From positions 1 through 36,487 of IMG/VR virus record IMGVR_UViG_3300044816_000209: a stretch of 36,487 bases of DNA; one strand, given 5' to 3'. The notes beneath the pieces were generated by a model. The model had not been told where the DNA came from and made no database searches. It saw nothing but the letters and a program-made list of their open reading frames with translations. The translations under genes and the position numbers were made by a program. This DNA comes from a virus. Of the stretch, positions 6,808 through 34,025 are shown one piece after another. How positions within the stretch are numbered: the stretch's first letter is position 1; the number at the start of each line of letters is the position of its first letter.

Positions 6808-7066
6808 GCGTGCGCGGAGCTGTCAAGGCACGGCCCGGCGCAGTTGATGGTTGAGAGTTGAGAGTTGAGGGAAGGACCGCGGGGCCTTTGCTGGACGGCT
6901 CCGCCGTTGGCTCGGAAGAACTCAGGCCGGCGAGGGCGAAGAATTCGGCGCAGGCTTCGAGGACGCGCAGGGTGGCGTCGAGCGTGGCGGGGGTGAACTC
7001 GGCCGCGGGCGCGACGCCCACGCGCTGCTGCAATCGGCGAAGCTTGGCGGGATCGAGGCTTGGCAT
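6671..7066 (-). CDS. Hypothetical protein with repeat-derived tail, up to 131 aa
   Basis: Residues 1-55 (LDPAKLRRLQQRVGV; TPATLDATLRVLEACAEFFALAGL) form a plausible helical domain. Residues about 66-75 (LPSTLNSQPS) are encoded by repeat family C, and the last about 45 residues overlap the start of the endolysin gene in another frame and look like translated antiframe. The original stop may have been lost when the repeat was inserted. Function unknown; it lies between the holin-like genes and the endolysin. Confidence 0.45.
   Translation of the reverse strand: MPSLDPAKLRRLQQRVGVAPAAEFTPATLDATLRVLEACAEFFALAGLSSSEPTAEPSSKGPAVLPSTLNSQPSTAPGRALTAPRTHEPSQSPRDHRSSRARISRHARNLRQPRPASRGILESHELRRRRH
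6849..6870. repeat. Family C repeat
   Basis: GGTTGAGAGTTGAGAGTTGAG tandem, between the endolysin start and the body of the preceding gene. Confidence 0.75.
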
Positions 7067-7075
7067 GCTAGGGAG

Positions 7076-7104
7076 GTTGATAGTTGAGAGTTGAGAGTTG
7101 AGAG
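7076..7104. repeat. Family C repeat
   Basis: GTTGATAGTTGAGAGTTGAG tandem just upstream of the start at 7066. Confidence 0.75.
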
Positions 7105-7121
7105 ATTGGAGGCAACGCAGA

Positions 7122-7147
7122 AAGGCCGCCGGTTTCCCGGCGGCCTT
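7122..7147 (-). terminator. Strong GNRA-capped hairpin in the lysis operon
   Basis: AAGGCCGCCGG (7122-7132) pairs perfectly with CCGGCGGCCTT (7137-7147); on the minus strand the loop is GAAA, a stable tetraloop. The following minus-strand sequence is TCTGCGTT, only a weak U-tract, so it may be a partial terminator or an RNA-stability element between the genes at 7193 and 7066. Confidence 0.5.
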
Positions 7148-7192
7148 CGTGACATATAGTCGGATTTTTCCTCCACAATTGAGGCGACAAAA

Positions 7193-7531
7193 TCAGACGA
7201 CGGGCTCGGGCTCGGCCGGGGGCTCGACGGTGGGCGCGGGGGTGACGATGTTGCTGACGCGCGCGGTGACGGCGCGGATGCGGGCGATGAGCTCGGGGGT
7301 GACGGCTTGCGCTTTGAGTTCCTCGATGATCGCTTCGACTTCCGCCGCTTCGACGGTGACGGCGGTTTCGAGTTCGGTGGTGGCGGTTTCGAGTTCGGTG
7401 GTGTTATCGGCCATAATGGTGCGGAGTTTTTGCAGGGCAGTTTTGATGCGCTTCAGAATGCCCGCCGGTTCGGAGGCGCAGTGGATGTGAACATCACCGA
7501 GGACGGTGATGTTGAAAACGGGCCGGCTCAT
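7193..7531 (-). CDS. Hypothetical lysis-region protein, 112 aa
   Basis: Starts MSRPVFNITVLGDVHIHC (a beta-hairpin-like start), then a long Glu/Thr/Ala-rich helix (about residues 22-90, with TTELETATTELETAVTVEAAEVEA likely coiled coil in character), and a Pro/Glu-rich tail. The start at 7531 was chosen because it overlaps the stop of the upstream holin-like gene as ATGA. No signal peptide. It could be a cytoplasmic partner or antiholin-like regulator, but nothing in the sequence proves this. Confidence 0.55.
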   Translation of the reverse strand: MSRPVFNITVLGDVHIHCASEPAGILKRIKTALQKLRTIMADNTTELETATTELETAVTVEAAEVEAIIEELKAQAVTPELIARIRAVTARVSNIVTPAPTVEPPAEPEPVV

Positions 7532-7818
7532 TGGCCGGGTTCGATGAGGCGGCTCGAATCGGTCTGCTTGTCGAGCACGCGGGTCGGGTCGTCGGCGCTG
7601 CCGTTGCCGCTGATCGAGCGGTCTTTGACGAGGTGCGCGAAGGTGCCGCCGCTGCCGATGGTGACGAGGCCGGCGAGGCCGACGACGGTGGGCTGCCAGC
7701 GATCGGGGAGAAAACTGACGATCTGCGGCTGCACGTAGATGGCGCCGGCGAGGATGGTGAGCCAGCCGCTGAGGCTCGTGCGCCAGTTGGCGCCGAAGAA
7801 GCGTTCGAGGAAGTTCAA
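7528..7818 (-). CDS. Holin-like small membrane protein, 96 aa
   Basis: Two hydrophobic segments (about residues 16-34, LSGWLTILAGAIYVQPQIV, and 43-62, TVVGLAGLVTIGSGGTFAH) separated by a short loop, then a charged soluble tail (KDRSISGNGS...). Length and topology suit a class II-type holin, and the gene is near the endolysin. The start appears to be TTG at 7818, since no ATG or GTG lies in a sensible position; this TTG sits at the edge of a family B repeat half (7817-7841). The start is therefore uncertain. Confidence 0.6.
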   Translation of the reverse strand: MNFLERFFGANWRTSLSGWLTILAGAIYVQPQIVSFLPDRWQPTVVGLAGLVTIGSGGTFAHLVKDRSISGNGSADDPTRVLDKQTDSSRLIEPGQ

Positions 7819-7860
7819 AGTTTAAGGTTTCTGGTTTAACGGCGCGGAGGCTCCGCGCTC
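7817..7860. repeat. Family B repeat, single arm plus small palindrome
   Basis: One arm AAGTTTAAGGTTTCTGGTTT is followed by the palindrome GCGCGGAGGCTCCGCGC (7842-7858); the opposite arm is missing. It fills the whole gap between two lysis genes. Confidence 0.7.
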
Positions 7861-8118
7861 TCAGTACTGGAAGTCGTCGTCGGGGAATTGGGCGCGGCGT
7901 TCGTGGAGTTCGTTTTGCCGGGCGCGCTCGCGCCAGCGCCGATAGACGAGGAAGAAGCTGAGCACGCCCGCGGCGGCGCCGGCGATCATGCCCACGTCGG
8001 CGGCGACTCCGGCGATGACGTGGAGCGCTTTGCACAGGGCGGCCGTGAGCGCGCCGATGGTCCCGTAGGCGCCGGTGGCGAGCGGGTGGCGATCGGCGAA
8101 TTGTTCGAGCAGGTTCAC
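7861..8118 (-). CDS. Second holin-like membrane protein, 85 aa
   Basis: Two likely membrane segments (about residues 14-36, TGAYGTIGALTAALCKALHVIAG in part, and 39-59, ADVGMIAGAAAGVLSFFLVY), then a strongly charged tail (RRWRERARQNELHERR). The small size, two spans and charged C-terminus fit a holin or antiholin, paired with the gene at 7528-7818. The start is GTG at 8118, with a TTGACT hexamer 17 bases upstream and a family B repeat beyond. Confidence 0.6.
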   Translation of the reverse strand: MNLLEQFADRHPLATGAYGTIGALTAALCKALHVIAGVAADVGMIAGAAAGVLSFFLVYRRWRERARQNELHERRAQFPDDDFQY

Positions 8119-8150
8119 GTCCGGTGCGGATGCGGAGTCAACGGGGGAGA

Positions 8151-8218
8151 AGGTTTAAGGTTTCTGGTTTCACGGACGCGGCCGACGAGCGCCAACCAGA
8201 AACCAGAAACGTGAAACC
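8151..8218. repeat. Family B repeat, paired arms
   Basis: AGGTTTAAGGTTTCTGGTTT and its inverse CAGAAACCAGAAAC surround a GC-rich core (GACGCGGCCGACGAGCGCC). Begins a few bases after the stop of the gene ending at 8225. Confidence 0.85.
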
Positions 8219-8224
8219 CCGCCT

Positions 8225-8878
8225 TCACGGCACTTCCGCATCGACCGGATCGAGCAGCGCGGCGCCGCTCGCGCTGTCCCAGACGGGATTGAGGCCGTCG
8301 GCGTCGCGGTACTCGAGGAAGAGGGTGCCTTCCATGAGCAGGTTGCAGGTCGTGGAAGGGTCCGTGCCGAAGATCGGCCGGGTGAAGCTGTGGAAGCCGC
8401 CGCCGCGCCACGCCGGGACGCGCACGGTGAGCGTGCCGATGACGTCCGTGGAGCCGAAAAGATCGGTGCTGAAACTCCCGGCGACGGTGGCACCGGTGCC
8501 GTCGATGCGGACGCTGATGAAACCCTCATTCCCATTGGCGATGAAGCCGATGGGGCCGAAAACGAAAGTCAGGATCGGTCCGCCGGCGGCGCCGCCGGGA
8601 GTGATGATGTTGGTGGTGTGAGTGGTGTCTTCGTCGAGGACGAGGTTGCTTTCATCGCCGAGGCTCGCGCGGGTGAAGGTGAGATTGATGGCGTCGCTAT
8701 TTGGCGCGAGGGAATACGAGCCGGTGACGCGCCACTCTGCGACGCGGAACATGCCGGCGATGGCCACGTCGAACTTGCGGTAGTCGGCGGCGGTCGTGAG
8801 ATCCGCGCAGACGACATAGCCGGTGGTGGGGCCGCTATATCCGACAGTCTCCGGCGAGAGCAGTGTTTCGATGCGCAT
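8225..8878 (-). CDS. Distal tail/structural protein, 217 aa
   Basis: A beta-rich protein with almost no charged helices (SYSLAPNSDAINLTFTR; IDGTGATVAGSFSTDLFGST), the composition of a tail structural or baseplate protein. It lies downstream of the tape measure, where distal tail genes are usual. The ATG at 8878 was chosen because it follows closely the stop at 8886; a longer frame upstream runs through other genes. No family recognised. Confidence 0.6.
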   Translation of the reverse strand: MRIETLLSPETVGYSGPTTGYVVCADLTTAADYRKFDVAIAGMFRVAEWRVTGSYSLAPNSDAINLTFTRASLGDESNLVLDEDTTHTTNIITPGGAAGGPILTFVFGPIGFIANGNEGFISVRIDGTGATVAGSFSTDLFGSTDVIGTLTVRVPAWRGGGFHSFTRPIFGTDPSTTCNLLMEGTLFLEYRDADGLNPVWDSASGAALLDPVDAEVP

Positions 8879-8885
8879 AAGGCGC

Positions 8886-9146
8886 TTAGATGACGATCGT
8901 CGCGGCGCTGGAGGCGTATTTGCGCTTGATGAGGGCGCTGTTGCGGATGCTGTAGAGCGGGTTGCCGCCCATCGTGATGAAGCGCCCGTTGTCGCCCTGC
9001 GTTTCGGTGAAGATGGTGTGATCGAACTTCGGGCGATCCTTGATGATCGCCTTGAGCAGCTTGCGCAGGAATTTTCCCGTACACCAGAGGCGGCCCTTGG
9101 TCTTGCCTTCGATCTTTTTTTGCAGCCCAGAAATGCTGTCGTCCAT
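8886..9146 (-). CDS. Hypothetical tail-region protein, 86 aa
   Basis: A basic N-terminal half (MDDSISGLQKKIEGKTKGRL, CTGKFLRKLLKAIIKDRPKF) followed by a short beta-like C-terminal part. Close spacing to both neighbours supports a real operon gene. No family recognised; position suggests tail assembly. Confidence 0.55.
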   Translation of the reverse strand: MDDSISGLQKKIEGKTKGRLWCTGKFLRKLLKAIIKDRPKFDHTIFTETQGDNGRFITMGGNPLYSIRNSALIKRKYASSAATIVI

Positions 9147-9155
9147 GAGTGGTCG

Positions 9156-9758
9156 CTACGGCGAGACGTTGTAGTTGAATGCGTAGTTTTCGGTGACTTC
9201 CCAAAGCGGCCCCGCATCGTTCCAGGTGCGGTTTTTGAGCACCCAGCCGGCGACGAGGTTGATCGTGACGCTGGGCAGACCCGTGATCGTGAAAGGGAAG
9301 TCCGGTGGAGGGGGAAGAAAGCGCGCGGTGGAGGCGCCGCCGACTCCGGCATGGTTGGGCGGGAAAGTGGTGAGGTAGATCCGCGTGAGGGTGGGGATGG
9401 GGATCTCGACGACGAAGGTGTTGCCGGTGAGCGCATCCGGCACGCTGAAGATCATGGCGTCCGCGGCGCCCGTGAATTTCTCGGGCTTGTTGGCGTCCAT
9501 CAAGCCGCGGTAATGGGCAGTGATTTCCACGAGCCCGCTTTCCAGCGTTTTCTGGCCCACTTCGACGACGTACATGAAGGGGAAATCCAGGTGCCGCGAG
9601 CCGCGCCGCGGGTAGCGGTTTTTATTCGTGCGCGGATGGGTCAGAAAGATGAGCGTGCCTTCGTCGAAACCGGCCTCTGTCTGATTGAAGCCGGGCGATT
9701 CCTGCGGAAACAAAACGCCCTCCGCGAGGCCGACAAGGATGCGGTTGCCGAGGGCCAT
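9156..9758 (-). CDS. Distal tail protein candidate, 200 aa
   Basis: Starts MALGNRILVGL and is rich in beta-strand patterns (LDFPFMYVVEVGQ; TFVVEIPIPTLTRIYLTTF), ending FNYNVSP. Its ATG directly follows the tape-measure stop (TAAATG), the usual place for distal tail proteins. It shares the MALGxxIL opening with the protein at 13455-13844, but I see no further similarity. Family not recognised. Confidence 0.6.
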   Translation of the reverse strand: MALGNRILVGLAEGVLFPQESPGFNQTEAGFDEGTLIFLTHPRTNKNRYPRRGSRHLDFPFMYVVEVGQKTLESGLVEITAHYRGLMDANKPEKFTGAADAMIFSVPDALTGNTFVVEIPIPTLTRIYLTTFPPNHAGVGGASTARFLPPPPDFPFTITGLPSVTINLVAGWVLKNRTWNDAGPLWEVTENYAFNYNVSP

Positions 9759-11192
9759 TTAGTCGGTGTCCTCTTTGGTGATCTCTTTGAGCGCATCCAC
9801 GATGTCCTTGAGCGTGGCGCCGCCGCTGAAATCGCTGCCTTCTTTCGCGGCGCCGCCGGGTCCCATTTTTCGCGGAAAGGCGTTTGGGCCGATGCCGGGC
9901 AGGACGCGCTGGCGGGTGAAAGGATCGATGCCGTCGAGGACCTGGCCATTCATGCCGCGATGCACGCTCATCAGTCCGCCGTCGGCTTCGAGCTTGTTGA
10001 AGAAGCGGCCGGAGCGGCGCGCGGAGTTGCGATCGTTGCGGAAGTCGCGCTGCACATCGGCCCAGCGGCGGCGGCGGCCATCGGGCTGCAGGTAACGCTC
10101 GGAGAGCATGTCCCGCCGCTCGTTTTTGTAACGGAGCTGGTTGAGTTGTTCGGTGCGGCGTTGCTGCGTATTGAGCAGGCCCGAAGTCAGAAGGCTCGAG
10201 GCTCTCTGCGTGTTGTAGCGATTGGCAGAGGCTCCTCTTTGAAATTTGCTGGCGTTGCTGCCTTCGATGCCGAGGAGCGAGGAAGCGTCGTTGTAATGCT
10301 TCTTCTCCATCTCCTCCTCCACGAGCAGAATGCTGCGCAGAGTGTTGTATCGTTCCTTGAGGTTTTTAAGGTCTTCCGGGCTCGCATCGGGTTCCGCCTT
10401 TTGCTTCACGATCGCGAGCTTGCGCTCGACTTCGAGTTCCTCCTTCTTCGCGTCCAGGGGGTTGTTGCCAGGGCCGTTGAGCTTGGCGATGCGGGCTTGA
10501 TCCGCGTAGGACTGGCTACGTTGATTGACGAATTCCTGCCGGCTTTTCCCGGCGACGAGTCCGCGTTGTTCCGAGCTATGCTGCTGATCTTCGTGCGTGG
10601 GCAGACCGAAGAAATCGCGCCCAGCTTGATAACCCTGAGCGAGACCGCGCCCCCACCTCATGTTGCCGAGACCGAAGTGCTCGTTCAACATCCGGTGCTG
10701 CGAGTCGCCAAGGAATTTGGCGGACGATTGCTGTTCCACCTCCGCCTTTTCCTGATCGAGCTTCTCCTGGATGCGCTTGCTAAGGCTCTCGGGACCTTCC
10801 GCGCTGCTCGAAAAACGATCCGCGCGGTTCGTCTTTTCAAACGTCGCCTGCAGCCGATCGTGCGCGGTATCGGTCTTGCCGACTTCCTCGCGGAACCAGC
10901 GCACCGCGGCGCCGGCGGCGCGGATTGCGGCCATGTAAACGACGAGCCGTCCGGCGGTCGCGCCGATGGCATGGCCGAAGCGTTGCATGGCATTTACGCC
11001 GCGGCCTTCCGCGAGATCGCGCATGCCCATGGCGAAGTTGCTGTCGCCGCCTTTGCCGTGCTTGCCGCCTTTCGCCTTGTCGGCGGCTTTGTCGATATTC
11101 TCGAGGAGCTTCTCGATGCGCTTGGCCGCTTTCTCCGCGTCCCCGGTTTCGAGGATGGTTTTGATCCGCAGGATTTCCGTGCGCTCGCTCAT
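9759..11192 (-). CDS. Tape measure protein, 477 aa
   Basis: A mostly helical protein: an early coiled coil (residues 12-45, TGDAEKAAKRIEKLLENIDK), a Gly/Lys linker, a hydrophobic stretch (about 82-100, GRLVVYMAAIRAAGAAVRWF) and long charged helices (135-160, 225-320) with a Gly-rich end. It follows the frameshifted tail chaperone after one intervening gene and precedes the distal tail genes, the fixed place of the tape measure. At about 0.15 nm per residue it would predict a tail near 70 nm, short for a siphovirus. The start overlaps the previous stop as ATGA (11192-11189). Confidence 0.75.
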   Translation of the reverse strand: MSERTEILRIKTILETGDAEKAAKRIEKLLENIDKAADKAKGGKHGKGGDSNFAMGMRDLAEGRGVNAMQRFGHAIGATAGRLVVYMAAIRAAGAAVRWFREEVGKTDTAHDRLQATFEKTNRADRFSSSAEGPESLSKRIQEKLDQEKAEVEQQSSAKFLGDSQHRMLNEHFGLGNMRWGRGLAQGYQAGRDFFGLPTHEDQQHSSEQRGLVAGKSRQEFVNQRSQSYADQARIAKLNGPGNNPLDAKKEELEVERKLAIVKQKAEPDASPEDLKNLKERYNTLRSILLVEEEMEKKHYNDASSLLGIEGSNASKFQRGASANRYNTQRASSLLTSGLLNTQQRRTEQLNQLRYKNERRDMLSERYLQPDGRRRRWADVQRDFRNDRNSARRSGRFFNKLEADGGLMSVHRGMNGQVLDGIDPFTRQRVLPGIGPNAFPRKMGPGGAAKEGSDFSGGATLKDIVDALKEITKEDTD

Positions 11193-11782
11193 GCCTGATG
11201 GGGGATGCCGGCCTCGCTGAGTTTGCGGGCGATGTAGCCGAGCATGTCGAGCCGGCGATTGCCCATCGCCTTGCCGGAGAAGTTCTTCTTGTTGTCCATC
11301 GTCACCACTCCATCCGACGCATTCCAGATGGTGATTTCGACCTGGCCTGGTGAGTGCGAAACCTCGATGCCACCGCGCTCAGGATCGACTTTCGAGCTGG
11401 TCTTGCCGCCCAGCGCGATGATCGCGCCGAGCCATCCGCTGGCGATGTATTTGGCGTGATTGGTGCGGATGCGAATGACCTTCGCCTCCATCTCTTCGAG
11501 CGTCTCTTTCTTGCCGGCCTTGGCCTTGCCGCGCCCGAAGCGCCAGCCGCGCTTGCCGCCTTTGTGAAACCATTTCGGGATTTTCCACCCGAGCGCTTTT
11601 ACGTCTGCAGCGATCTCCGCCTTGGTCGGCGCGATGAGCGCGGTCTGCGTGTAAAGCTCAGTCGCAAGCTTGCGGTTCTCTTCCACAAAAAGCGGCTCCA
11701 GTTCTCGCCCGTTGAGCTTCGCGTAATTCGCGAAAGTCCGGGCGAGTTCCTCGGCGTTGGAAGTGAAAGAGACGGCGCGCAT
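11189..11782 (-). CDS. Tail completion-like protein, 197 aa
   Basis: The first 50 residues (ELARTFANYAKLNGRELEPLFVEENRKLATELYTQTALIAP) resemble the N-terminal helix of HK97 gp10-type tail completion proteins, which pass through alternating helices and then strands (VEITIWNASDGVVTMDN). A very basic segment (WFHKGGKRGWRFGRGKAKAGKK, about 70-92) is inserted. It lies between the tail-assembly chaperone and the tape measure, an unusual place for a gp10 homologue, so the assignment is tentative. Confidence 0.5.
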   Translation of the reverse strand: MRAVSFTSNAEELARTFANYAKLNGRELEPLFVEENRKLATELYTQTALIAPTKAEIAADVKALGWKIPKWFHKGGKRGWRFGRGKAKAGKKETLEEMEAKVIRIRTNHAKYIASGWLGAIIALGGKTSSKVDPERGGIEVSHSPGQVEITIWNASDGVVTMDNKKNFSGKAMGNRRLDMLGYIARKLSEAGIPHQA

Positions 11783-11793
11783 GAGGTTAGGAG

Positions 11794-12434
11794 TCAGTGC
11801 CCGGCATATTGCTCGCGGAGTTTGTCAAAGCGGGCGCGTGCGGCGTTGTGGCGAGTGCCGGAACTGCGCCGGCAGCGATGGCCTTCGAGCCACAGCTCGG
11901 CGTGCCGGTAGCGCAGCACTTCGGCAAGGCTCAGCTCCCAGCGGATGAAGTCCGGCGTCCAGCCCGTTTGGCGCGCGATGCTCCAGACGAGGACGGCTTC
12001 CGCGTCGGGGACGGCGCCGCCTCCGCCACTACCGCCGAGCTTTTTTTTTCCACGAGCGCGACTTCGGCGGCGGCGACGATGCCGAGGATTTCATCGGCCA
12101 GGCGGCGCGCTTCGAGAAGGTCGCTGTCGGTGAAGTCTTCGGCGAGAATGCTGACCTCGGCGCGGAAGCCGGCGACGTCATCGGTGGCGAGGATGAGCTC
12201 GCGGCGCGCGGCGAGCTTCGCCTCGGGGGTTTCGCCATAAGCGCGGGCGAGGACTTCGAGCAGCAGGAGATCGAAGAAGGTGCCGGTATCGTCGGCGCGC
12301 GTGACTTTGCGGAAGACATCGCGCAGGCCCATGCTGAGCGGGGCGAGGGTGCGCTCGCGGAAGATGCGCGGGCCGGTGAGCGCTTCGCCGGCGAGCTGGC
12401 GCTGGAGGTCTTCTTCGGTGGGTTCGGCTTGCAT
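11794..12434 (-). CDS. Tail assembly chaperone, -1 frameshift product
   Basis: If ribosomes slip back one base in the A run at 12041-12049, translation leaves the 167-codon frame after ...ALVEKK and continues for about 80 more codons to a TGA at 11794-11796. The extension is convincing protein: a Gly linker, then WSIARQTGWTPDFIRWEL, SLAEVLRYRHAELWLEG and a basic helix ending KLREQYAGH. This is the arrangement of the lambda G/GT pair: a short form and a frameshifted long form made upstream of the tape measure and needed for tail assembly. The extension has no start codon of its own and fills what would otherwise be an unexplained gap. A sequencing error in the homopolymer is the main alternative. 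Confidence 0.7.
11931..12434 (-). CDS. Tail assembly chaperone, short (zero-frame) form, 167 aa
   Basis: Helical protein (residues 5-125: EEDLQRQLAGEAL, FRKVTRADDTGTFFDLLLLE, DEILGIVAAAEVAL) followed after KK by a low-complexity basic tail that looks like readout of the other frame. The helical part has the size of lambda gpG-like chaperones and lies two genes upstream of the tape measure. The zero frame crosses nine consecutive A residues at codons 129-131, the place of the proposed -1 frameshift. Confidence 0.65.
   Translation of the reverse strand: MQAEPTEEDLQRQLAGEALTGPRIFRERTLAPLSMGLRDVFRKVTRADDTGTFFDLLLLEVLARAYGETPEAKLAARRELILATDDVAGFRAEVSILAEDFTDSDLLEARRLADEILGIVAAAEVALVEKKSSAVVAEAAPSPTRKPSSSGASRAKRAGRRTSSAGS
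12041..12050 (-). promoter_or_regulatory. Slippery sequence for -1 frameshift
   Basis: Minus-strand codons GAA AAA AAA AGC contain the heptamer A AAA AAA in the correct phase for simultaneous -1 slippage. The new frame continues AAG CTC GGC and is open for about 80 codons. It is the longest A run in the late region. Confidence 0.7.
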
Positions 12435-12444
12435 AGGGATGTGG

Positions 12445-12534
12445 GGTTTCTGGTTTAAGGTTTCTGGTTCAAGGTTGGCGGTCGTCGGGCGGGTTCCGTG
12501 AAACCAGAAACCAGAAACCAGAAACCTTGAACCG
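12445..12534. repeat. Family B repeat, paired arms
   Basis: GGTTTCTGGTTTAAGGTTTC arms on the left and CAGAAACCAGAAACC copies on the right, ending CCTTGAACC, around a GC-rich core. Starts about 11 bases after the stop of the gene ending at 12546. Confidence 0.88.
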
Positions 12535-12545
12535 CGGCGGCGTGG

Positions 12546-13286
12546 TCAAAAATGGCGGCGGAATTTGTCGTGGGTGGCGTCGGTGGCGTCGGCGCGGAGG
12601 AGGAGGCTGGTCTCGCCGTCGCGCTCGCGGATGATGGGCGGGCTGCCGCGCGCGATCTTGAGCAGTTCGTCGTGATTCTTGAGGGCGCCGCACATCCACT
12701 GCGCGGGGCTCGCGCCTTCGACGCGATACGACATGTCGAGGATTTCCTGTGCGGCGGCGGCGCCTGGCTTGCCGACGATGAAGGCGCGGCCGGTGAAGGC
12801 GAGCGGGGCGAAGCCGCTGGTTTTCAGGATCGCCGCCTCGCGCAGGCTCGGCGTGGAAAAGGTGTTCTGCGCGCGCGTCTCGGCGGCGAGGGTGCGCGTG
12901 CCTTTGGTGACTTCGATCCACCACCGCCGGGCCTCGAGCGCGGCGCGCATGGCGACGAGCGGGTGCAGCGGGAACTCCGCCTCGAACCGGGTGCGATGTT
13001 CCCAAAAGCTGACGACGTGCTCGGTCTTGTATTGCGCGCAGATGGAAGTGTCGCCGACCCAGAAACACTTGCGCCGCGCACCGCTGGCGGCATCGACTTC
13101 ATCGGTGAATGGCGCGGGCTCGCGATACGGGATGCCGAGGGTGAGCAGGCACGCGGCGAGCGGTGTATCGAGGATGGGCCAGTGCGCGAGCTGGATGGGC
13201 GGGAGCTTCCCTTGATGGTTCGCGGCGCTGAGCTGCGCGTAAAGGCTCTGGGCCTGCGCGAAGATGCTGGTGCTTGGTTCGGACAT
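12546..13286 (-). CDS. Hypothetical tail-region protein, 246 aa
   Basis: A mixed alpha/beta protein: a helical start (TSIFAQAQSLYAQLSAANHQ), a hydrophobic middle (LAHWPILDTPLAACLLTLGI), a strand-rich part with CFWVGDTSICAQY, then a basic helix (ALEARRWWIEVTKGTR). No catalytic motif recognised. It sits just upstream of the tail chaperone and downstream of a putative tail tube gene, so a tail role is likely by position only. Confidence 0.6.
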   Translation of the reverse strand: MSEPSTSIFAQAQSLYAQLSAANHQGKLPPIQLAHWPILDTPLAACLLTLGIPYREPAPFTDEVDAASGARRKCFWVGDTSICAQYKTEHVVSFWEHRTRFEAEFPLHPLVAMRAALEARRWWIEVTKGTRTLAAETRAQNTFSTPSLREAAILKTSGFAPLAFTGRAFIVGKPGAAAAQEILDMSYRVEGASPAQWMCGALKNHDELLKIARGSPPIIRERDGETSLLLRADATDATHDKFRRHF

Positions 13287-13350: not shown

Positions 13351-13453
13351 GATCCGCAGATTTCGCAGATGAGCGCAGATTTCCGGAAGGAGCTGAGGAA
13401 GGGTTTTTCTGCTGTGTTTCATCTGCGAAAATCTGCGCAATCTGCGGATAAAA
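13351..13453. repeat. Family A repeat, copy 2 (type ii)
   Basis: GATCCGCAGATTTCGCAGAT and its inverted partner ending AATCTGCGGATAAAAC, centre GGAAGGAGCTGAGGAAGG. The right end abuts the stop codon at 13455. Confidence 0.9.
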
Positions 13454-13454
13454 C

Positions 13455-13844: not shown

Positions 13845-13860
13845 ATCTCGGGCCGGGCGA

Positions 13861-13866: not shown

Positions 13867-13878
13867 CACGCGGGGGGA

Positions 13879-13960
13879 GGTTTAAGGTTTCTGGTTTAAG
13901 GTTTAAGGTTGGCGCTCGCCGGCCGCGCCCGTGAAACCAGAAACCAGAAACCTTGAACCT
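13879..13960. repeat. Family B repeat, paired arms
   Basis: GGTTTAAGGTTTCTGGTTTA on the left, CAGAAACCAGAAACCTTGAA on the right, core GGCGCTCGCCGGCCGCGCCC. It fills the gap directly after the stop at 13961. Confidence 0.9.
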
Positions 13961-14143: not shown

Positions 14144-14169
14144 GCCACTGGCGCGCGCGTCAATGAGTT

Positions 14170-14271
14170 GATCCGCAGATTCCGCAGATTTGCGCAGATT
14201 TTCGGAACAGGCAGAGGGAACGTTTTTAGTACTAATCTTGATCTGCGCAAATCTGCGTAATCTGCGGATCA
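14170..14271. repeat. Family A repeat, copy 3 (type ii)
   Basis: GATCCGCAGATTCCGCAGAT and inverted partner CTGCGTAATCTGCGGATCA. The outermost TGA of the right arm, read on the minus strand, is the stop codon of the gene ending at 14269. Confidence 0.9.
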
Positions 14272-18851: not shown

Positions 18852-18941
18852 AGGTTTAAGGTTTCTGGTTTAAGGTTTCTGGTCGGTGCCAGACGCGCGC
18901 GCTCCGTGAAACCAGAAACCAGAAACCAGAAACATTGAACC
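18852..18941. repeat. Family B repeat, paired arms
   Basis: AAGGTTTAAGGTTTCTGGTT twice on the left, three CAGAAAC units on the right, core TCGGTGCCAGACGCGCGCGC. Ends 6 bases before the start at 18845. Confidence 0.9.
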
Positions 18942-19270: not shown

Positions 19271-19374
19271 TTATCCGCAGATTACGCAGATGGGCGCAGA
19301 TTTTCGGAAGTGGGAGAGGGCGAGGTTTGGCGCTGCTTTTCATCTGCGAAAATCTGCGCAATCTGCGGATAAAA
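19271..19374. repeat. Family A repeat, copy 4 (type ii)
   Basis: TTATCCGCAGATTACGCAGA and inverted AATCTGCGCAATCTGCGGAT; centre GGAAGTGGGAGAGGGCGAGG. Fills the gap between the genes ending at 19379 and starting at 19266. Confidence 0.92.
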
Positions 19375-20038: not shown

Positions 20039-20112
20039 AGGTTTCTGGTTTCTGGTTTAAGGTTTCGGCAGGCGCTCGGCTCCGTGAAACCAGAAACCAG
20101 AAACGTGAAACT
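20039..20112. repeat. Family B repeat, paired arms
   Basis: AGGTTTCTGGTTTCTGGTTT and CAGAAACCAGAAACGTGAAA around GGCAGGCGCTCGGCTCC. Lies 5 bases after the stop of the gene ending at 20115. Confidence 0.9.
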
Positions 20113-20579: not shown

Positions 20580-20613
20580 GCTAGGGGCGCATTGTCAAAG
20601 CCGGGGAAGAAGC

Positions 20614-20716
20614 GATCCGCAGATTAACGCAGATGAGCGCAGATTTTCGGAAGAGGCAGAGGAAGGAGTTTGCCGCTGCTTTTCATCTGCGTAAATCTGC
20701 GCAATCTGCGGATAAA
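20614..20716. repeat. Family A repeat, copy 5 (type ii)
   Basis: GATCCGCAGATTAACGCAGA and inverted AATCTGCGCAATCTGCGGAT; centre GGAAGAGGCAGAGGAAGGAG. Begins 7 bases after the stop at 20724 in the direction of transcription. Confidence 0.92.
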
Positions 20717-20723
20717 TCCGGCC

Positions 20724-22066: not shown

Positions 22067-22150
22067 GGTTTCTGGTTTCTCGTTTAAGGTTTCAGGTGAA
22101 GCTCTCGTCGAGCGGCCTCCGTGAAACCAGAAACCAGAAACCTTGAACCT
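22067..22150. repeat. Family B repeat, paired arms
   Basis: GGTTTCTGGTTTCTCGTTTA and CAGAAACCAGAAACCTTGAA around a GAAGCTCTCGTCGAGCGGCC core. Lies 6 bases after the stop of the gene ending at 22156. Confidence 0.9.
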
Positions 22151-24781: not shown

Positions 24782-24884
24782 TTATCCGCAGATTGCGCAG
24801 ATTTTCGCAGAGGGGTTCGGAGCGGGCTTTCCCCGCTTTTTTCCCTTCCGTTCATCTGCGCAAATCTGCGTAATCTGCGGATCA
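24782..24884. repeat. Family A repeat, copy 6 (type i)
   Basis: TTATCCGCAGATTGCGCAGA and inverted AATCTGCGTAATCTGCGGAT; centre GGTTCGGAGCGGGCTTTCCC. Confidence 0.92.
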
Positions 24885-27848: not shown

Positions 27849-27853
27849 GGGAT

Positions 27854-27961
27854 GAACCGCGAAGGAGCGAAGGAGCGAAGAGAGACGATCCGCGGCGCGC
27901 CCCGGTAAGCGGGGATTTCTCCGGCCCTTCTCCCTTCGCTGCTTTGCTTCTTCGCGGTAAA
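27854..27961. repeat. Family E inverted repeat pair
   Basis: Left arm GAACCGCGAAGGAGCGAAGG (27854-27880), right arm CTTCGCTGCTTTGCTTCTTC (27933-27961), imperfect inverses around a GATCCGCGGCGCGCCCCGG core. A single arm recurs at 29253-29280. It fills the gap between the gpW-like gene and the portal gene. Confidence 0.8.
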
Positions 27962-27969
27962 AAATCGGC

Positions 27970-28533
27970 TCATGCGCTCACGAACTTGATGCCGATGGTG
28001 CGGCGGACTTTCAGGCCGGCTTGCGCGAGGAGGGCCTGTTTTTCCATGAAGACTTCGCGGCGGTATTTGTCGCGCAGCCGGTGGAGATCGAGGATCGGGA
28101 TGCGGCTGAGCTGCTGGCCGTCGATGTCTGTGGTCTCAAGGCCGCGCGGGATGCGGCTGACGAGCGCGGCTTCGATGAGCGCGAGCACCTGCGACGCGTG
28201 GGTGCTGCCGAGGGCGGCGAGCGGGCTGGCGATGATCGTGGTCTGGCCGCGCGCGATCTCGTGCCGGATGATGGTGGAGCCGGTGCCCTGCTCGACATAC
28301 GACGTCCAGAGATAGACGCCCGCGGTGTAGACGGCGGAGACGGCGGCGGTGACGTTGACTGCGTAGCTGCTGCCGCTCGCCGTGGCGGTGATGGCAATAT
28401 TCGCGACGCCGATCGCCTGAAAAACGTACTTCAGCGTCCAGGCCGTGGCCGGGTAATCCGCGACCGTCTGCGTCCACGCCAGCGTCTCGCCCGCGGTGAT
28501 GGTGGTGGGCTCGGTGTTGGGGATCGCAGGCAT
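27970..28533 (-). CDS. gpW-like head-tail joining protein with Ig-like N-terminus, 187 aa
   Basis: Residues 1-90 are beta-rich (TLKYVFQAIGVANIAITATA; GVYLWTSYVEQG) and resemble an Ig-like or bacteriophage beta domain. Residues 110-187 are helical with GLETTDIDGQQLSRIPILDLHRLRDKY, where 'D-G-x-x-L-S-x-I-x-x-x-D-L' resembles gpW-like connectors that bind the portal. The place, directly before the portal gene in the operon, agrees. TTGACA lies 16 bases before the ATG. Confidence 0.6.
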   Translation of the reverse strand: MPAIPNTEPTTITAGETLAWTQTVADYPATAWTLKYVFQAIGVANIAITATASGSSYAVNVTAAVSAVYTAGVYLWTSYVEQGTGSTIIRHEIARGQTTIIASPLAALGSTHASQVLALIEAALVSRIPRGLETTDIDGQQLSRIPILDLHRLRDKYRREVFMEKQALLAQAGLKVRRTIGIKFVSA

Positions 28534-28575
28534 GCAGCCCGCGCCGCACTGTCAAAGCACAGAGCGGCGCGGCGC

Positions 28576-28683
28576 AGTTGAGGGTTGAGAGTTGAGAGTT
28601 GAGGGAAGGGCCACGCTTCCGTCTTTTGGCGCGCTCCGCGCGGAGGGTTCCGTTTCCGGTCTCTCAACTCTCAACTCTCAACC
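28576..28683. repeat. Family C inverted pair
   Basis: GTTGAGGGTTGAGAGTTGAG (28576-28605) and CTCTCAACTCTCAACTCTCA (28661-28683) flank a 55-bp centre. The outer part of the second arm codes the last residues and the TGA stop of the gene ending at 28664. Confidence 0.85.
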
Positions 28684-29245
28684 ATTCCGCGACTTCTTCG
28701 GCACCGAACATCTCGCGCAGGCCGGAGACGATTTGCTGGAATTGCGGTTTCACCACGCTGACGGGCGGTTTCGTGCCGTGGCCTTCGCGGATGCGCCGGT
28801 TCCAGAGCGCGAATTTGTTGCTCACGGTGTCGAAAGTGACGACGGGCGCGAGCTTGGTGTCGCCTGTCAGTTCGGGCCGTTCTTTCTCCGGCGCGAGGTG
28901 GAAAACGCAGCGCCGGATGCTGTCCGTGCTGAAATTACCCGAGCTCGGGTAATTTGGATTCGCCTCGAAAAACGCCTTGGCGTCGTTGGCGCGGTTGCAC
29001 CGGCTGCGTTCGTCGCCGCCGAGCATGGGAAAGTTCGCGGCGACGTAAAACATCCATTTCCCGTGCCCGATTTCCTCCTTCAGCGCGGCGAGCGTCTCGC
29101 CCAGCTCCCACAGCCGTTCGCAGAGCTTTTGCAGATCCTCGCGCACCGCGTTCTCGGCATCGATGAGCAGATCGCATTGCGCCCGCGCGGTGGCGAGCAG
29201 CGTGCGCGTGAGTTCCTGCGAAGCGGTGGCGAGTTCGGTGCTCAT
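28664..29245 (-). CDS. Hypothetical protein, 193 aa
   Basis: Residues 1-65 are a long helix (TASQELTRTLLATARAQCDL; LQKLCERLWELGETLAALKE), then a mixed region with FYVAANFPMLGGDERSRCNRA and TFDTVSNKFALWNRRIREGH. The early coiled coil and the central aromatic patch resemble terminase-associated or phage DNA-binding proteins but match no family I know. The ATG at 29245 was chosen as the longer frame upstream is antiframe of neighbours. The last residues (LRVES) and stop are supplied by repeat C. Confidence 0.6.
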   Translation of the reverse strand: MSTELATASQELTRTLLATARAQCDLLIDAENAVREDLQKLCERLWELGETLAALKEEIGHGKWMFYVAANFPMLGGDERSRCNRANDAKAFFEANPNYPSSGNFSTDSIRRCVFHLAPEKERPELTGDTKLAPVVTFDTVSNKFALWNRRIREGHGTKPPVSVVKPQFQQIVSGLREMFGAEEVAEWLRVES

Positions 29246-29252
29246 CGTTTGA

Positions 29253-29280
29253 AAAACCGCGAAGGAGCGAAGCAGCGAAG
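29253..29280. repeat. Family E repeat half
   Basis: GAAAAACCGCGAAGGAGCGA and following AGCAGCGAAG, matching the left arm at 27854-27880; no partner arm here. Confidence 0.7.
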
Positions 29281-29348
29281 GCATTCCCACGCGCGGCAGC
29301 AGAACGCGTAACAGAGGATGAGCGCGCGCACGCGCAGGCGGCGGTCGC

Positions 29349-29525
29349 TCATGCCGTGGGTTTGCGTGCGGCGTCGCGGAGTTGGCGCGCCTGCTCCAGA
29401 TCAACTTTGCAGTCCGCAGAGAGGAGCGCGAGCACCTCTGGCGCATCCTGATTGATGAGCTGCTCGCTGTATTCCTTTCCGCCTACACAGACCATGCCTC
29501 GAATGAAATTGCGCCTGGCTCTCAT
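29349..29525 (-). CDS. Hypothetical protein, 58 aa
   Basis: ATG at 29525 overlaps the upstream stop as ATGA. Product MRARRNFIRGMVCVGGKEYS, then a helical end (APEVLALLSADCKVDLEQAR). Too short to place in a family; real by coupling and composition. Confidence 0.5.
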   Translation of the reverse strand: MRARRNFIRGMVCVGGKEYSEQLINQDAPEVLALLSADCKVDLEQARQLRDAARKPTA

Positions 29526-29734
29526 GCGGCGGGTTCGGTCACGAAGTCGCGCGCTGGCATCGTGACGACGGCGGTGATTTGAAAGAAGGCGCGCAAGAGG
29601 AGGTCGTTTTGCTTGAGAATTTCCGCGTTCTGGCGCTGCACTTCGCGCGCGATGGCCAGAAGGTTTTCGTCTGGTCCAAAGCGCTCGCACTTCATCCCTG
29701 GCTCCAAAATGATTGTATCGCCCGGTGTGATCAT
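29522..29734 (-). CDS. Hypothetical protein, 70 aa
   Basis: MITPGDTIILEPGMKCERFG looks like a short beta unit, followed by a helix with heptad-like pattern (LLAIAREVQRQNAEILKQND). Coupled to the next gene by ATGA. Function unknown. Confidence 0.5.
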   Translation of the reverse strand: MITPGDTIILEPGMKCERFGPDENLLAIAREVQRQNAEILKQNDLLLRAFFQITAVVTMPARDFVTEPAA

Positions 29735-29741
29735 GGCTCAT

Positions 29742-29772
29742 TCTCTCAACACTCAACTTTCAACTCTCAACT
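29742..29772. repeat. Family C repeat, inverse orientation
   Basis: CTCTCAACACTCAACTTTCA and CTCTCAAC at the boundary of the genes at 29522-29734 and 29771-30799. Confidence 0.75.
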
Positions 29773-30799
29773 ACGCCGCCGCGGTGGTCTGCGCCTGGCG
29801 GCATTTGAGGCGCGTGTTTTCGCCGCGCATCGCGGGGGCTTGCAGGCCGCTGAAGGTGTCGCGGAATTCGCCGACGAGTTTGTTGATCGCCTGGCGCGTG
29901 GCGTTGGTCGGTTCGCCGAGCACGGTGTTCGTCGCGGCGTCGAGCAAATCCGGGCGGAGGACGTAGCCGATGACGTTGAGCCGCACGCCGAGCGCGCTGA
30001 AGGTCGAAGCCTGGCGGCACCAATCGAAGACGCGGCCGTAAATGATGCCGAGCTGGGCAGCATTTTCGATGAGCAGGAATTGCAGCTCGCCGAGCAGGCC
30101 GGCGGGGATCGGGCCGGCGGCGAGATCGGGCCGGCAATAGCCGATGAGCGCGGCCATGCGCTGGCCTTTTTTGACGAGATGCCCGGCTTTGAATGCCCAG
30201 ACCAGCGCGCGGGCGAAGGCTTCGTGGGCGTCGCGGATTTCCTCCGAGCCAAGGCAGAGGTTATCCGCAGATTGCGCCGATTTTCGCAGAGGTTCAGAAG
30301 CGTCGTCTCCGATCCCCTTCCCATCCGTAAATCTGCGCTCATCTGCGAAATCTGCGGATAAACCCTCTTCCCGTCGCAGGATGGGCCGTCCATTGTGCCG
30401 CCCGCATTCCGCGCCGTGGGGAACCGCATGATCTTCGCGAAAATCGAGATCGGGCTCGGCGGCGCCGGCCGGGCGGGAACGATCGGTGAGCGGGCGATCG
30501 ATGCCCTTGGCGCGGGCGAATTCCTGCTCCGCCGCGGTGAGCGCGTTGAACCAATCGCGATAGGTTCGCGTCCACGATTTGCGCGTGGCGATCTCACGGG
30601 CGTCGGCTTGGGATCGGTCGAGAAACTCGGCCTTCTTTTGCTTTTTGGAACGACCACCGAACGCGCCTTTCGCTTCGCCATTGTGTTTGCCGCTGCCGCC
30701 GATGCCTTGGTAACGATCCCGCGGAATTTCTACCGCGTGGAAATTGGAACCCATGCCCATAGAGGCGGCGGCAGCGAGGATCTGGAGAACGCTTCTCAT
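29771..30799 (-). CDS. Hypothetical protein interrupted in frame by repeat A, 342 aa
   Basis: Residues 1-145 (GRSKKQKKAEFLDRSQADAR; RTYRDWFNALTAAEQEFARA) and 182-342 (AFARALVWAFKAGHLVKKGQ; LNVIGYVLRPDLLDAATNTV) are globular and seem to form one protein. Residues 146-181 (GLSADFADERRFTDGKG... SAQSADNL) are the in-frame translation of a full family A repeat. No family recognised; the gene lies among the small genes between terminase and portal. Met15 and Met17 are alternative starts. Confidence 0.6.
   Translation of the reverse strand: MRSVLQILAAAASMGMGSNFHAVEIPRDRYQGIGGSGKHNGEAKGAFGGRSKKQKKAEFLDRSQADAREIATRKSWTRTYRDWFNALTAAEQEFARAKGIDRPLTDRSRPAGAAEPDLDFREDHAVPHGAECGRHNGRPILRREEGLSADFADERRFTDGKGIGDDASEPLRKSAQSADNLCLGSEEIRDAHEAFARALVWAFKAGHLVKKGQRMAALIGYCRPDLAAGPIPAGLLGELQFLLIENAAQLGIIYGRVFDWCRQASTFSALGVRLNVIGYVLRPDLLDAATNTVLGEPTNATRQAINKLVGEFRDTFSGLQAPAMRGENTRLKCRQAQTTAAA
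30261..30362. repeat. Family A repeat, copy 7 (type i), inside a gene
   Basis: TTATCCGCAGATTGCGCCGA and inverted ATCTGCGAAATCTGCGGATA, with about 40 bp between the arms. The whole element is 102 bp (34 codons) and keeps the reading frame of 29771-30799. Confidence 0.9.
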
Positions 30800-30834
30800 T
30801 CGGTCCGAGTCTTCGCCGCCTTCGCGCCGGGCGG

Positions 30835-31260
30835 CTACGCCGGAAGTGTTCCAAAATGTTCCAAAGAGAAGAGGCGATCCGCAGATTTCGCAGATTTTCG
30901 CAGAGGGTTCGGAACCTCGTTTCCGAGCCCATTCCCCTCCGATAATCTGCGCTCATCTGCGAAATCTCCGGATAAACCCGGTGGCGGATGCACGGGCGGG
31001 GCGCCGCGGCTCACGAGCGCGGCTTCGAGCAGGGCTTCGCGCTCGGGTTTGCTGTGCTTGAGGAATTCGCGCACCGGAATGCCGAGCGTCTTCGCGGCGT
31101 CGCGCTGCTCGAGCCACCAGAGGAGTTGAAACTCATCGACCCGGCCACCGACGAACGGGGCGCCTTCGAGCTCCCACCGCCAGACGGTGGTGCGGCCACG
31201 CTTGAAGTGGAAACAGACTTCTTTCCGGGTGAGTGTCGGACCCGACGGGGGGGGCTTCAC
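30835..31260 (-). CDS. HTH protein with repeat-encoded tail, 141 aa
   Basis: GTG start. Residues 10-35 (TRKEVCFHFKRGRTTVWRWE) have the pattern of a winged helix-turn-helix as in Nu1/excisionase-type DNA-binding proteins, followed by LLWWLEQRDAAKTLGIPVRE and a charged helix. A second terminase-associated DNA-binding role is possible. Residues 95-129 are encoded by family A copy 8, and the end (SLEHFGTLPA) lies beyond it, so the repeat again is inside the frame. Confidence 0.55.
   Translation of the reverse strand: MKPPPSGPTLTRKEVCFHFKRGRTTVWRWELEGAPFVGGRVDEFQLLWWLEQRDAAKTLGIPVREFLKHSKPEREALLEAALVSRGAPPVHPPPGLSGDFADERRLSEGNGLGNEVPNPLRKSAKSADRLFSLEHFGTLPA
30875..30976. repeat. Family A repeat, copy 8 (type i), inside a gene
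   Basis: GATCCGCAGATTTCGCAGAT and inverted ATCTGCGAAATCTCCGGATA; centre GGTTCGGAACCTCGTTTCCG. In frame in the 3' part of 30835-31260. Confidence 0.88.
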
Positions 31261-31445
31261 TTGCTGGGAAAGGAAACACGCATTGCGCGCAAAAGTAGAG
31301 CAAATTATGACCCACCGGCGACCGCGAGGAGGCCGGGGCGCGGCGCAGGGGCTATCGCCTCACATGGAGCGACGCGTGCGACGGCACCCCGAGCCTGCTC
31401 GGAGTTCGGTGACCACGCGCGCAGCGCGAGTCAATGGAACCGGAT

Positions 31446-31544
31446 TTATCCGCAGATTGCGCAGATTTTCGCAGAGGTTCGGAGCTTCAATTCCAAGCCC
31501 TTTCCCTTCCGTTAATCTGCGAAAATCTGCGTAATCTGCGGATC
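31446..31544. repeat. Family A repeat, copy 9 (type i)
   Basis: TTATCCGCAGATTGCGCAGA and inverted AATCTGCGTAATCTGCGGAT, about 28 bp per arm with one or two mismatches. Its end supplies the TGA stop of the gene ending at 31543. The rest of the gap 31261-31445 (185 bp) shows no gene. Confidence 0.92.
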
Positions 31545-31800
31545 ACTTCTCCTGAAAATGAGGTGGGCGCGGATCGCCGATCTGGAGCTGGCCGACGATC
31601 TCGCGGGAGAGTTCGCGGCCGGCGGCATCGAGGACGATGACGAGCCCGCCTTCCACGCGGCAATGCCACCTCGCGTATTCCACGGCCTGCGCGGAAACGA
31701 GGTACCAGAGCGCATGCGGAAGAGTCGGCCCGGTGAGCGTAAAGCCATCGCCCGCGGAACGCGGGGAAACGAGGTAAGGCGGCGGGTCGTGCTCAGGCAC
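31543..31800 (-). CDS. Hypothetical protein, 85 aa
   Basis: Product reads PEHDPPPYLVSPRSAGDG, then LWYLVSAQAVEYARWHCRVE and LVIVLDAAGRELSREIVGQL: a small alpha/beta protein without a family I can name. The GTG at 31800 is preferred; a TTG at 31836 would start inside a repeat arm. It follows the terminase gene. The stop codon TGA is the terminal TGA of repeat A copy 9. Confidence 0.5.
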   Translation of the reverse strand: MPEHDPPPYLVSPRSAGDGFTLTGPTLPHALWYLVSAQAVEYARWHCRVEGGLVIVLDAAGRELSREIVGQLQIGDPRPPHFQEK

Positions 31801-31822
31801 GGGCCGGACGGTATCACGAATT

Positions 31823-31936
31823 GAGCCGCGGACCAACGCTGATGAAACGCGGATGGGCGGAGGGGAAGAAAAGCGGTGGAAGCTGCGTCCGAACCCTTCT
31901 TCTCATCCGCGTTTCATCCGCGTTAATCCGCGGCTC
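31823..31936. repeat. Family D inverted repeat pair
   Basis: Left arm GAGCCGCGGACCAACGCTGA (31823-31855) and right arm CATCCGCGTTTCATCCGCGT (31904-31936) are 33 bp each with three mismatches. Centre GGGCGGAGGGGAAGAAAAGC. Lies 4 bases after the terminase stop at 31941. Confidence 0.9.
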
Positions 31937-31940
31937 TTCT

Positions 31941-34025
31941 TCATCGCTTCCACCCGCTGACGAAGCCGCGGCCGGGGCGGATGCTGGAACCTTTTTGCAC
32001 GAAGCTTCGGGGTGACGCGGGTTTTACGTTGCTGGTTTCTGGTTTCTGGTTGGATGACGTCTGGACGTCATTGGGGGACGCTTTACCCGGCTGGGGGGAC
32101 GGTTTACCCACTTCGAACTCGAGCGCCAGTTTGTCGTATCTCGGCTTGAGAATCTTTTCTGCGGCCAGGCAGCCGACGGCGCCGTCGAGCGCTTCGTTGC
32201 GGACGCCTTGCTCGCAGCCGAACCATTTGTGCCAGTCGCCATCGCGGCCCTGGCGGTCTTCGCTGGTCTCGGCGACGAGCATTTTGAAGTAGTGTTCGCT
32301 GAACTGGCCGAGGGCGGGCGTGTGCCGGTAGCCGGTGCTCGCGGGGTTGTCCTGATCGAGCCGCTGATAGATGATTTCCTTGGCGGCGTTGGTGCCGAGC
32401 ACCCAGACCTTGGTCTTGTGTTTGCCTTCCTTGCGCGGGCGATTCTCGACGATGGCGCGGCTCAGCTCCGTGTCGCCGCGGCTCGCCCAGATGCGCCGGC
32501 GCAGGCGCGTGCGCGTGAATTCAAAGACGTGGTCGCGCCAGTTGCCGGCATCGACGAGGCCGCCGCTGATGCGCATCGTGCGTCCGCTCGGGTGCGGGTA
32601 GGTGGTGGTGAGCAGGATGCGGTCGAGCTCCGCCCAGACGCCCTGGTCGGGCTTGACGAGCGGGGCGCCTTTGCCGCCGCGGATGACCTGATAGTCGAGA
32701 TCCCACTGCTGCTGATTTTGCCCGAAGCCCTGGATGAAAAGCTCGAGTCGATCGAGCTGCACATCGACGAAGAAGACGGTGAGCAGGACGCCCGCGGGGA
32801 GCATTTGCGCCGGGTCGAATTCTTCGCGCCGGAGGAAGAGCTTGGAATGCTCTGGCTTGGCGTCGCTGGCGCTGGCGTAGGTCTCGGCGTCGTCGGTGTT
32901 GACGAGGACGCGGCGCGCGCGCTCGGGGTTTTCGCTCTCCTCGATCTCGATTTCTTTGCGGGCGAGGATTTCGAGGAAGCCGCCGGGATATTTGACTGGA
33001 TCGACGGGGTGCGGCCAGAGCAGCGAATTCGCATGGAATCCGGCGCGGCCGGCGAAAGGCCTAGTGGGTTTCCAGAGATCGAATCTTGGCTTTTTCGGAT
33101 CTCCGCCCATCATCATCGCATGCCGCTGCGCGTCGTTCAGCAAGCCGCTACAGTGCGGACATTCGAGGCGAGCTTCTTCCGGCCGCTCAAGGTCGTACCG
33201 AAGCCGCGTGCGCGGCTTGCCGTCATTGAACGGATCAAGCCCCGTCCGAGACATTATCATCGGCGCGCCGCCGCACAGCAGGCAGGTGACGAACCACTGC
33301 CGGAGGTCGCTGGCGAGTAGCTTCGCCTCGATCCGGCTCTTGCCTTTCAAGCTCGGGTATGAGCAATAAATCTGGATGCAGTCGGGGTATTCGCTGCCGC
33401 GCTTGGCGAAGATTTTGAGCTGGTCGCCTTCGTCCGTCGTGATCTCGATGATCGCGTCGATCTCGTCCGCGTAGAGGACGCGCGCTTTCATCCGGCGCAT
33501 CCGGCCAGGGGCGTTCGCGCCGAGCGTGGTGAGCGAGCCGCCGGTGAAGCGCTTGTGCAAAATCGTGTTCGTCGATTTGCGCTGACCGAGCGAGTTGTCG
33601 ATGATCGCGGCGAGCTCCGGCGTGGGCTCGACAAGCTCGCCCATGAAGTCGTCTTTCACCCACAGCTTGCCGTCGCCTTCCACCGGCCACATCGCGCCGA
33701 TGCGGCACGGCTGCTCCTTGATGATGAAGCCGAGCGCGGTGAGGACGATGCGGCTTTTGCCGAGCCGCGAGGCCATCATCATGGCGACCTCGACGTTGCG
33801 CGGGTTGAAGATTTCGAGATACGGCTCGAGCTGGTAGGGCGCGAAGTCGAAGGTGAACGGCCGCGTGGCGCCGAACGCGTCCGGCATCTTCATGACGGTC
33901 TCGGCGAATTCTCGCGGGGTGACCGTGGAGAGCGGCGCGAGGCAGCGCGCGCGGATGGCGTCGAACTCCGCAAGCAGCGCCGCGCGCTCGAGGGCGTAGG
34001 GGTGGACGGATGTCGGCTTGATCAC
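31941..34025 (-). CDS. Terminase large subunit (GpA family), 694 aa
   Basis: ATPase: Walker A-like MASRLGKS (84-91), Walker B VLYADEID (183-190), coupling motif IYCSYPSLKGKS (219-230). A four-Cys zinc ribbon is likely (C248, C251, C289, C292). Nuclease domain from about 410: FFVDVQLDRLELFI with Asp421, GGLVDAGNWRD with Asp492, EALDGAVG with Asp614. It cuts and pumps DNA into the prohead, docking on the portal. Starts with GTG; CTGACA lies 13 bases upstream. Residues about 656-669 (TSSNQKPETSNVKP) are translated family B repeat, so the C-terminal tail has been extended. GpA-type terminases usually cut at cos sites. Confidence 0.92.
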   Translation of the reverse strand: MIKPTSVHPYALERAALLAEFDAIRARCLAPLSTVTPREFAETVMKMPDAFGATRPFTFDFAPYQLEPYLEIFNPRNVEVAMMMASRLGKSRIVLTALGFIIKEQPCRIGAMWPVEGDGKLWVKDDFMGELVEPTPELAAIIDNSLGQRKSTNTILHKRFTGGSLTTLGANAPGRMRRMKARVLYADEIDAIIEITTDEGDQLKIFAKRGSEYPDCIQIYCSYPSLKGKSRIEAKLLASDLRQWFVTCLLCGGAPMIMSRTGLDPFNDGKPRTRLRYDLERPEEARLECPHCSGLLNDAQRHAMMMGGDPKKPRFDLWKPTRPFAGRAGFHANSLLWPHPVDPVKYPGGFLEILARKEIEIEESENPERARRVLVNTDDAETYASASDAKPEHSKLFLRREEFDPAQMLPAGVLLTVFFVDVQLDRLELFIQGFGQNQQQWDLDYQVIRGGKGAPLVKPDQGVWAELDRILLTTTYPHPSGRTMRISGGLVDAGNWRDHVFEFTRTRLRRRIWASRGDTELSRAIVENRPRKEGKHKTKVWVLGTNAAKEIIYQRLDQDNPASTGYRHTPALGQFSEHYFKMLVAETSEDRQGRDGDWHKWFGCEQGVRNEALDGAVGCLAAEKILKPRYDKLALEFEVGKPSPQPGKASPNDVQTSSNQKPETSNVKPASPRSFVQKGSSIRPGRGFVSGWKR
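32020..32052. repeat. Family B repeat fragment inside the terminase gene
   Basis: TTTTACGTTGCTGGTTTCTG followed by GTTTCTGGTT, in frame near the 3' end of the terminase gene. Confidence 0.75.

Follow-up and report, generated by a model that had tools for sequence, protein, structure and literature searches.

What the long palindromes of one prophage operon are, signals that act on the RNA of each gene or traces of a small mobile element, is the question raised by this locus. The window, i.e. the whole stretch of 36,487 nucleotides that was analyzed, is an entire virus record and represents a 36.5-kb lambda-like prophage that encodes terminase, portal and capsid proteins on the minus strand and the integrase on the plus strand. 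The arms of the palindromes match those flanking GxxExxY and S23 four-helix-bundle genes, two small bacterial genes whose role is not known. Our results therefore suggest that the palindromes most likely represent copies, lacking the gene, of a mobile element of a little-described kind, and not purpose-built regulators.

The palindromes of the prophage

A hairpin scan of the window detected 16 paired inverted repeats with a score of at least 15, and 19 with a score of at least 13. Five first-order Markov copies of the window contained no hairpin scoring at least 15, and 40 second-order random copies gave a mean of 0.35 hairpins at a score of at least 13, with a maximum score of 15. The palindromes are real and far above the level expected by chance. 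The original prediction had distinguished at least five families, and five (A to E) were confirmed by arm sequence. As read from these sequences, the arms consist of short tandem units of about 9-10 nt in family A, 10-11 nt in D, 8 nt in E and 7 nt in B and C, and the elements are 65-115 bp in length (Table 1). Family A comprises nine paired copies plus a half at about 2507-2547, and family B six paired copies plus fragments near 7810, 22784 and 32025. Families C, D and E have one paired copy each, accompanied by halves in C, by a half at 1980-2012 in D and by one near 29260 in E. Dispersed copies have their loops as well as their arms in common, and family A is made up of two subfamilies. We also considered whether every element points the same way with respect to transcription, but rejected this, because B1 is inverted and the two subfamilies of A cannot be oriented against each other. 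No autonomous (gene-bearing) copy was found among the open frames scanned in the window.

Neither a DNA search of GenBank phages nor a terminase search of viral contigs returned relatives of the window phage, and a host search with the capsid protein gave distant matches only (22-36% identical). When 388 Verrucomicrobiota genomes were searched for family B arms, two tracts were found, neither of which was called as a paired palindrome. On the lysogeny side, the plus-strand gene at 3490-4320, beside the integrase, encodes a protein with an N-terminal helix-turn-helix-like region (by eye) and a C-terminal PAS domain, which is a candidate sensor-type lysogeny regulator; it contains a LOV-like stretch, GRPLSLLQG, that has no cysteine.

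Table 1. Palindromic elements of the window, and the gene that contains A6
Feature	Positions	Strand	Remarks
A0 (family A)	2716-2830		degenerate outer arm; outside the range first proposed (6849-32052)
B1 (family B, period 7)	8150-8218		after stop 8225; inverted relative to B2-B6
B2	12445-12526		after stop 12546
A1	13352-13449		after stop 13455
B3	13878-13960		after stop 13961; family-C-type palindrome at the corresponding junction of the related phage
A2	14169-14271		overlaps stop 14269
B4	18853-18941		after stop 18952; junction of the related phage 31 bp, without palindrome
A3	19271-19372		after stop 19379
B5	20041-20104		after stop 20115
A4	20613-20717		after stop 20724; GGAGTGGT period-8 palindrome at the junction of the related phage
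B6	22067-22142		after stop 22156
A5	24784-24882		between portal and major capsid genes
E1 (period 8)	27856-27958		after stop 27970; junction of the related phage about 5 bp
C1 (GTTGAGA, period 7)	28583-28683		upstream stop (28664) inside its arm
A6	30255-30368		114 nt, in frame in gene 29771-30799; segment missing from the orthologue in the related phage
A7	30869-30982		114 nt; close to the 3′ end of an open frame, which reads through it in frame
A8	31448-31543		family A
D1 (ATCCGCG, period 10-11)	31823-31936		after terminase stop 31941
Phage gene with A6 in frame	29771-30799	-	orthologue in the related phage

Gain and loss between phages, and position relative to genes

The window phage was compared with a related phage (L137-L139) whose capsid protein is 78% identical to its own. 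The junction that holds B4 measures 106 bp in the window phage versus 31 bp in the related phage, and the one that holds E1 measures 121 bp versus about 5 bp; in the related phage both are palindrome-free. At the B3 and A4 junctions the related phage carries palindromes of other sequence families, and the orthologue of the gene containing A6 lacks this segment, so A6 is an in-frame insertion. Gain, loss and family replacement at orthologous junctions and the insertion of A6, together with the filled and empty plasmid sites of four-helix elements described below, support the proposal that the elements are mobile. Small frames occupy positions 29246-29770 of the window, with half a C and half an E element at the borders. 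The related phage lacks this segment, its junction being about 5 bp, and the segment is possibly a gene cassette between element remnants. In the gap where the window phage has B6, the related phage carries an apparent tRNA gene (by reading; L137:17001-17254, with the end CCGACTCCCGCAACCA).

The stops behind which palindromes had been placed (8225, 12546, 13455, 13961, 18952, 19379, 20115, 20724, 22156 and 31941) are all called gene ends. Two corrections concern A6 and A7, which are inside open frames, and the left end (1-3.4 kb), which also carries elements, e.g., A0. Most elements of the window are intergenic and just after a stop codon, in gaps that measure about 100-180 bp, and in 13 gaps their mean fractional distance from the stop was 0.28 (P = 0.003 versus uniform sliding). 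The intergenic gaps are short, and start-side motifs limit the other edge of the elements: in several gaps of both the window phage and the related phage, TTGACA precedes the ATG by 13-16 nt and the elements stop short of it. Such sites were found at 6826, 11828, 13866, 20027, 20598 and 28555 (minus strand) of the window, and at four places in the related phage. Altogether, TTGACA occurs nine times on the minus (sense) strand of the window and is absent from the plus strand.

Where family A palindromes occur in chromosomes, 10 of the 112 elements at these loci are intragenic, and the stop side is the nearer one (median 46 versus 75 bp), with a paired test in tandem gaps that was not significant. 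Across 400 kb of Thiosymbion sequence, the 48 tandem-unit palindromes located outside called genes were not enriched near stops. Hence, a strict stop-codon target is not general, and the stop proximity seen in the window probably reflects tolerance plus conserved start-side motifs. A search for empty sites between two Thiosymbion genomes gave no clean sites, the genomes being too diverged and too repeat-rich. One Thiosymbion stretch (L240:8092-8290), in which a family A palindrome is nested in another tandem-unit palindrome (GCCGCAAATGAACGC...), matches many places in T. oneisti.

Gene-bearing relatives and plasmid insertion sites

The whole family A palindrome was searched as a pattern with 40 fixed bases. 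The matches, mostly to MAGs, belong by record titles to about eleven phyla, the titles naming Verrucomicrobia, Planctomycetes (Gemmata, Phycisphaerae), Chloroflexi, Nitrospinota, Nitrospirae, Proteobacteria, Desulfobacter and other deltaproteobacteria, Acidobacteria, Spirochaetia, Latescibacterota and Hydrogenedentota. In one match (L021) the arms surround a GxxExxY gene. Genes of this type are present in 26 of 34 genomes with family A palindromes; among Verrucomicrobia they were found in 12 of the 14 family-A-bearing genomes versus 68 of 145 genomes sampled from the phylum (P = 0.005), a co-occurrence that is weaker evidence than flanking arms because GxxExxY is common in Verrucomicrobiota (47%).

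Of the 25 GxxExxY genes that could be used, 21 are spanned by inverted tandem-unit arms, with a best period of 8-11 nt in 20 of the 21. Inverted arms also span S23/four-helix genes (13 of 22, with period 7 in all 13), and none of 20 PIN-domain control genes was spanned. Family A arms were found at seven GxxExxY loci and family C units, GTTGAGAG, at two four-helix loci; thus, among the five families of the window, A and C have arm sequence in common with gene-bearing elements. The D and ExK residues of PD-(D/E)XK nucleases are kept in all 21 aligned GxxExxY proteins, and the GxxExxY protein is predicted to be such a nuclease; a profile search of the PDB gave no match for it. The four-helix profile matched PDB entries 2rld and 2gsc, and the S23 protein of X. 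campestris is, according to PMC4990558, a pentamer built from four-helix bundles. Neither GxxExxY nor four-helix genes were found in GenBank phages.

Filled and empty sites were observed on cyanobacterial plasmids, where they concern gene-bearing elements and not gene-less palindromes; period-7 arms are present in 7 of 8 four-helix elements on these plasmids. In three Nostoc plasmids (L312, L316 and L317) a four-helix element lies between two genes, which in four homologous plasmids (L310, L318, L319 and L320) are separated by few bases and no insert. The insertion interrupts a stop codon (TA^G), which is restored by an A that the element brings. TTCTA is present on both sides of the element, which is suggestive of a 5-bp target duplication at this one site; the duplication is unproven because TTCTAG is likewise found at the end of a related element at another site. 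At the next Nostoc junction, L310 and L312 exchange their roles as empty and filled plasmid, and the element involved is a different one. One four-helix element is conserved, together with its arms, between unrelated flanks in different cyanobacteria. The Calothrix brevissima plasmids L307 and L308 both have an integrase gene and, after it, an S23 element bordered by identical period-7 arms.

Origin of the palindromes and comparison with known systems

We consider it likely that the window palindromes are MITE-like, non-autonomous and gene-less relatives of GxxExxY and four-helix elements, which persist where they are least harmful. The hypothesis that the hairpins are instead kept by selection as RNA signals (for termination, stability or translation), one per gene of the lytic operon, would fit their location behind stop codons, at smaller distances than expected from uniform sliding, and the two orthologous junctions at which the two phages carry palindromes of different families, as if any hairpin served. 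However, the sense RNA was less stable than the antisense in 16 of 18 folded elements, and RNA folding shows no sign of sense-strand selection. Moreover, orthologous junctions of the related phage have no element, one element is in frame inside a gene, and there is no stop preference in Thiosymbion. We regard selection for RNA signals as unlikely, and the gene-by-gene tuning of RNA put forward in the original prediction is not supported, given the weaker folding of the sense RNA and the turnover of elements between related phages.

Palindromes could also be made in place, with no mobile element, if microsatellites of 7-11 nt expanded locally and fold-back synthesis followed. Arm sequences that vary widely between elements at a constant period are in keeping with this origin, and so are three non-palindromic heptad tracts of different sequence that lie side by side in intergenic Verrucomicrobiota DNA (L296:1490-1640), but it is quite unlikely given that loops are common to dispersed copies, that the same arms recur across phyla, and that the cyanobacterial four-helix element and its arms are conserved between unrelated flanks. 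Transposition of REP or REPIN elements by a RAYT (Y1) transposase, also suggested originally, is very unlikely. Although 28 of 32 genomes with family A palindromes contain Y1_Tnp genes, tandem-unit arms did not span any of 10 Y1 loci, five of which had short hairpins of the classical type on both sides or in the vicinity. The window elements have tandem-unit arms and are not 20-40-bp hairpins, no GTAG or CGTC tags were seen by eye at the hairpin feet of those folded, and no Y1 gene was found in the window. The RAYT/REP candidate was rejected because the Y1 transposase genes of the same genomes carry ordinary REP hairpins, not tandem-unit arms.

On this reading, the fuller relatives of the palindromes are built as arm, small gene and inverted arm, and are of two kinds. 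In one, the gene encodes a GxxExxY protein between arms of about three 8-11-nt units, and window families A, D and perhaps E would belong here; in the other, it encodes an S23 (23S-intervening-sequence) four-helix-bundle protein between arms of several 7-nt units, and families B and C would belong here. Proteins encoded elsewhere may mobilize the copies in trans, recognizing the structure of the hairpin rather more than the sequence. Copies presumably of host origin would have reached the prophage, and would persist between a stop codon and the start signals of the next gene, or in frame. Once transcribed, they could fold into 30-40-bp stems that RNase III would be likely to cut, which may soften their cost; cutting by RNase III has been reported for rRNA intervening sequences (PMC4990558) and for Correia elements (PMC10969869).

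The chances are even that all these elements form one unrecognized class of mobile palindromes, in which the arm unit length goes with the protein (7 nt with S23 four-helix proteins, 8-11 nt with GxxExxY nucleases). Such a class would connect rRNA intervening sequences, for whose protein no function is known (PMC4990558), with the unexplained heptameric arrays and the gene-less copies of phage operons, and would give a common cause to intervening sequences, over-represented intergenic heptamers and the predicted GxxExxY nucleases. Phage operons would then be a habitat for such elements, and mobility would become testable with short constructs. A search of titles and abstracts, with preprints and most subscription journals outside its scope, found GxxExxY mentioned in passing and no link of GxxExxY or four-helix/intervening-sequence proteins with palindromes.

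REP and REPIN sequences (PMC3733652, PMC3116915) are likewise dispersed palindromes of mostly intergenic DNA, but they are RAYT-associated hairpins of 20-40 bp with GTAG or CGTC tags, unlike the window elements. Correia and ERIC MITEs, according to the review PMC10969869, are short non-autonomous inverted-repeat elements present in mRNA, and ERIC insertion alters transcript levels. The window elements are also short and non-coding with inverted-repeat ends, and for families A and C there is a gene-bearing element with the same ends; they differ in belonging to other sequence families and in arms recognized by their unit period, with a small gene spanned in the fuller copies. The same review describes Rickettsia palindromic elements of about 150 bp in frame in protein genes, as is A6, of 114 bp (A7 is read in frame and has no orthologue for comparison, and the other elements are intergenic); these are families of Rickettsia, and neither tandem-unit arms nor a partner gene is described in the passages on them. 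The heptameric SSR arrays of Xanthomonas and Nostoc (PMC4692102) also consist of intergenic 7-nt units, often in convergent inverted pairs that can form stem-loops or cruciforms, but they were described as quadruplex-forming SSRs, in a text in which 'S23' is absent and no four-helix link is made. The 23S rRNA intervening sequences lie in rRNA helices, whereas the window copies lack a gene and are located in phage DNA, either intergenic or within a gene; neither the window nor any of 20 four-helix loci gave an Rfam match, so that no insertion in rRNA was seen. Intervening sequences with an S23/IVP gene (PMC4990558) are nevertheless small, horizontally spread elements whose complementary borders form a stem-loop, and their protein belongs to the same family as that of the four-helix relatives.
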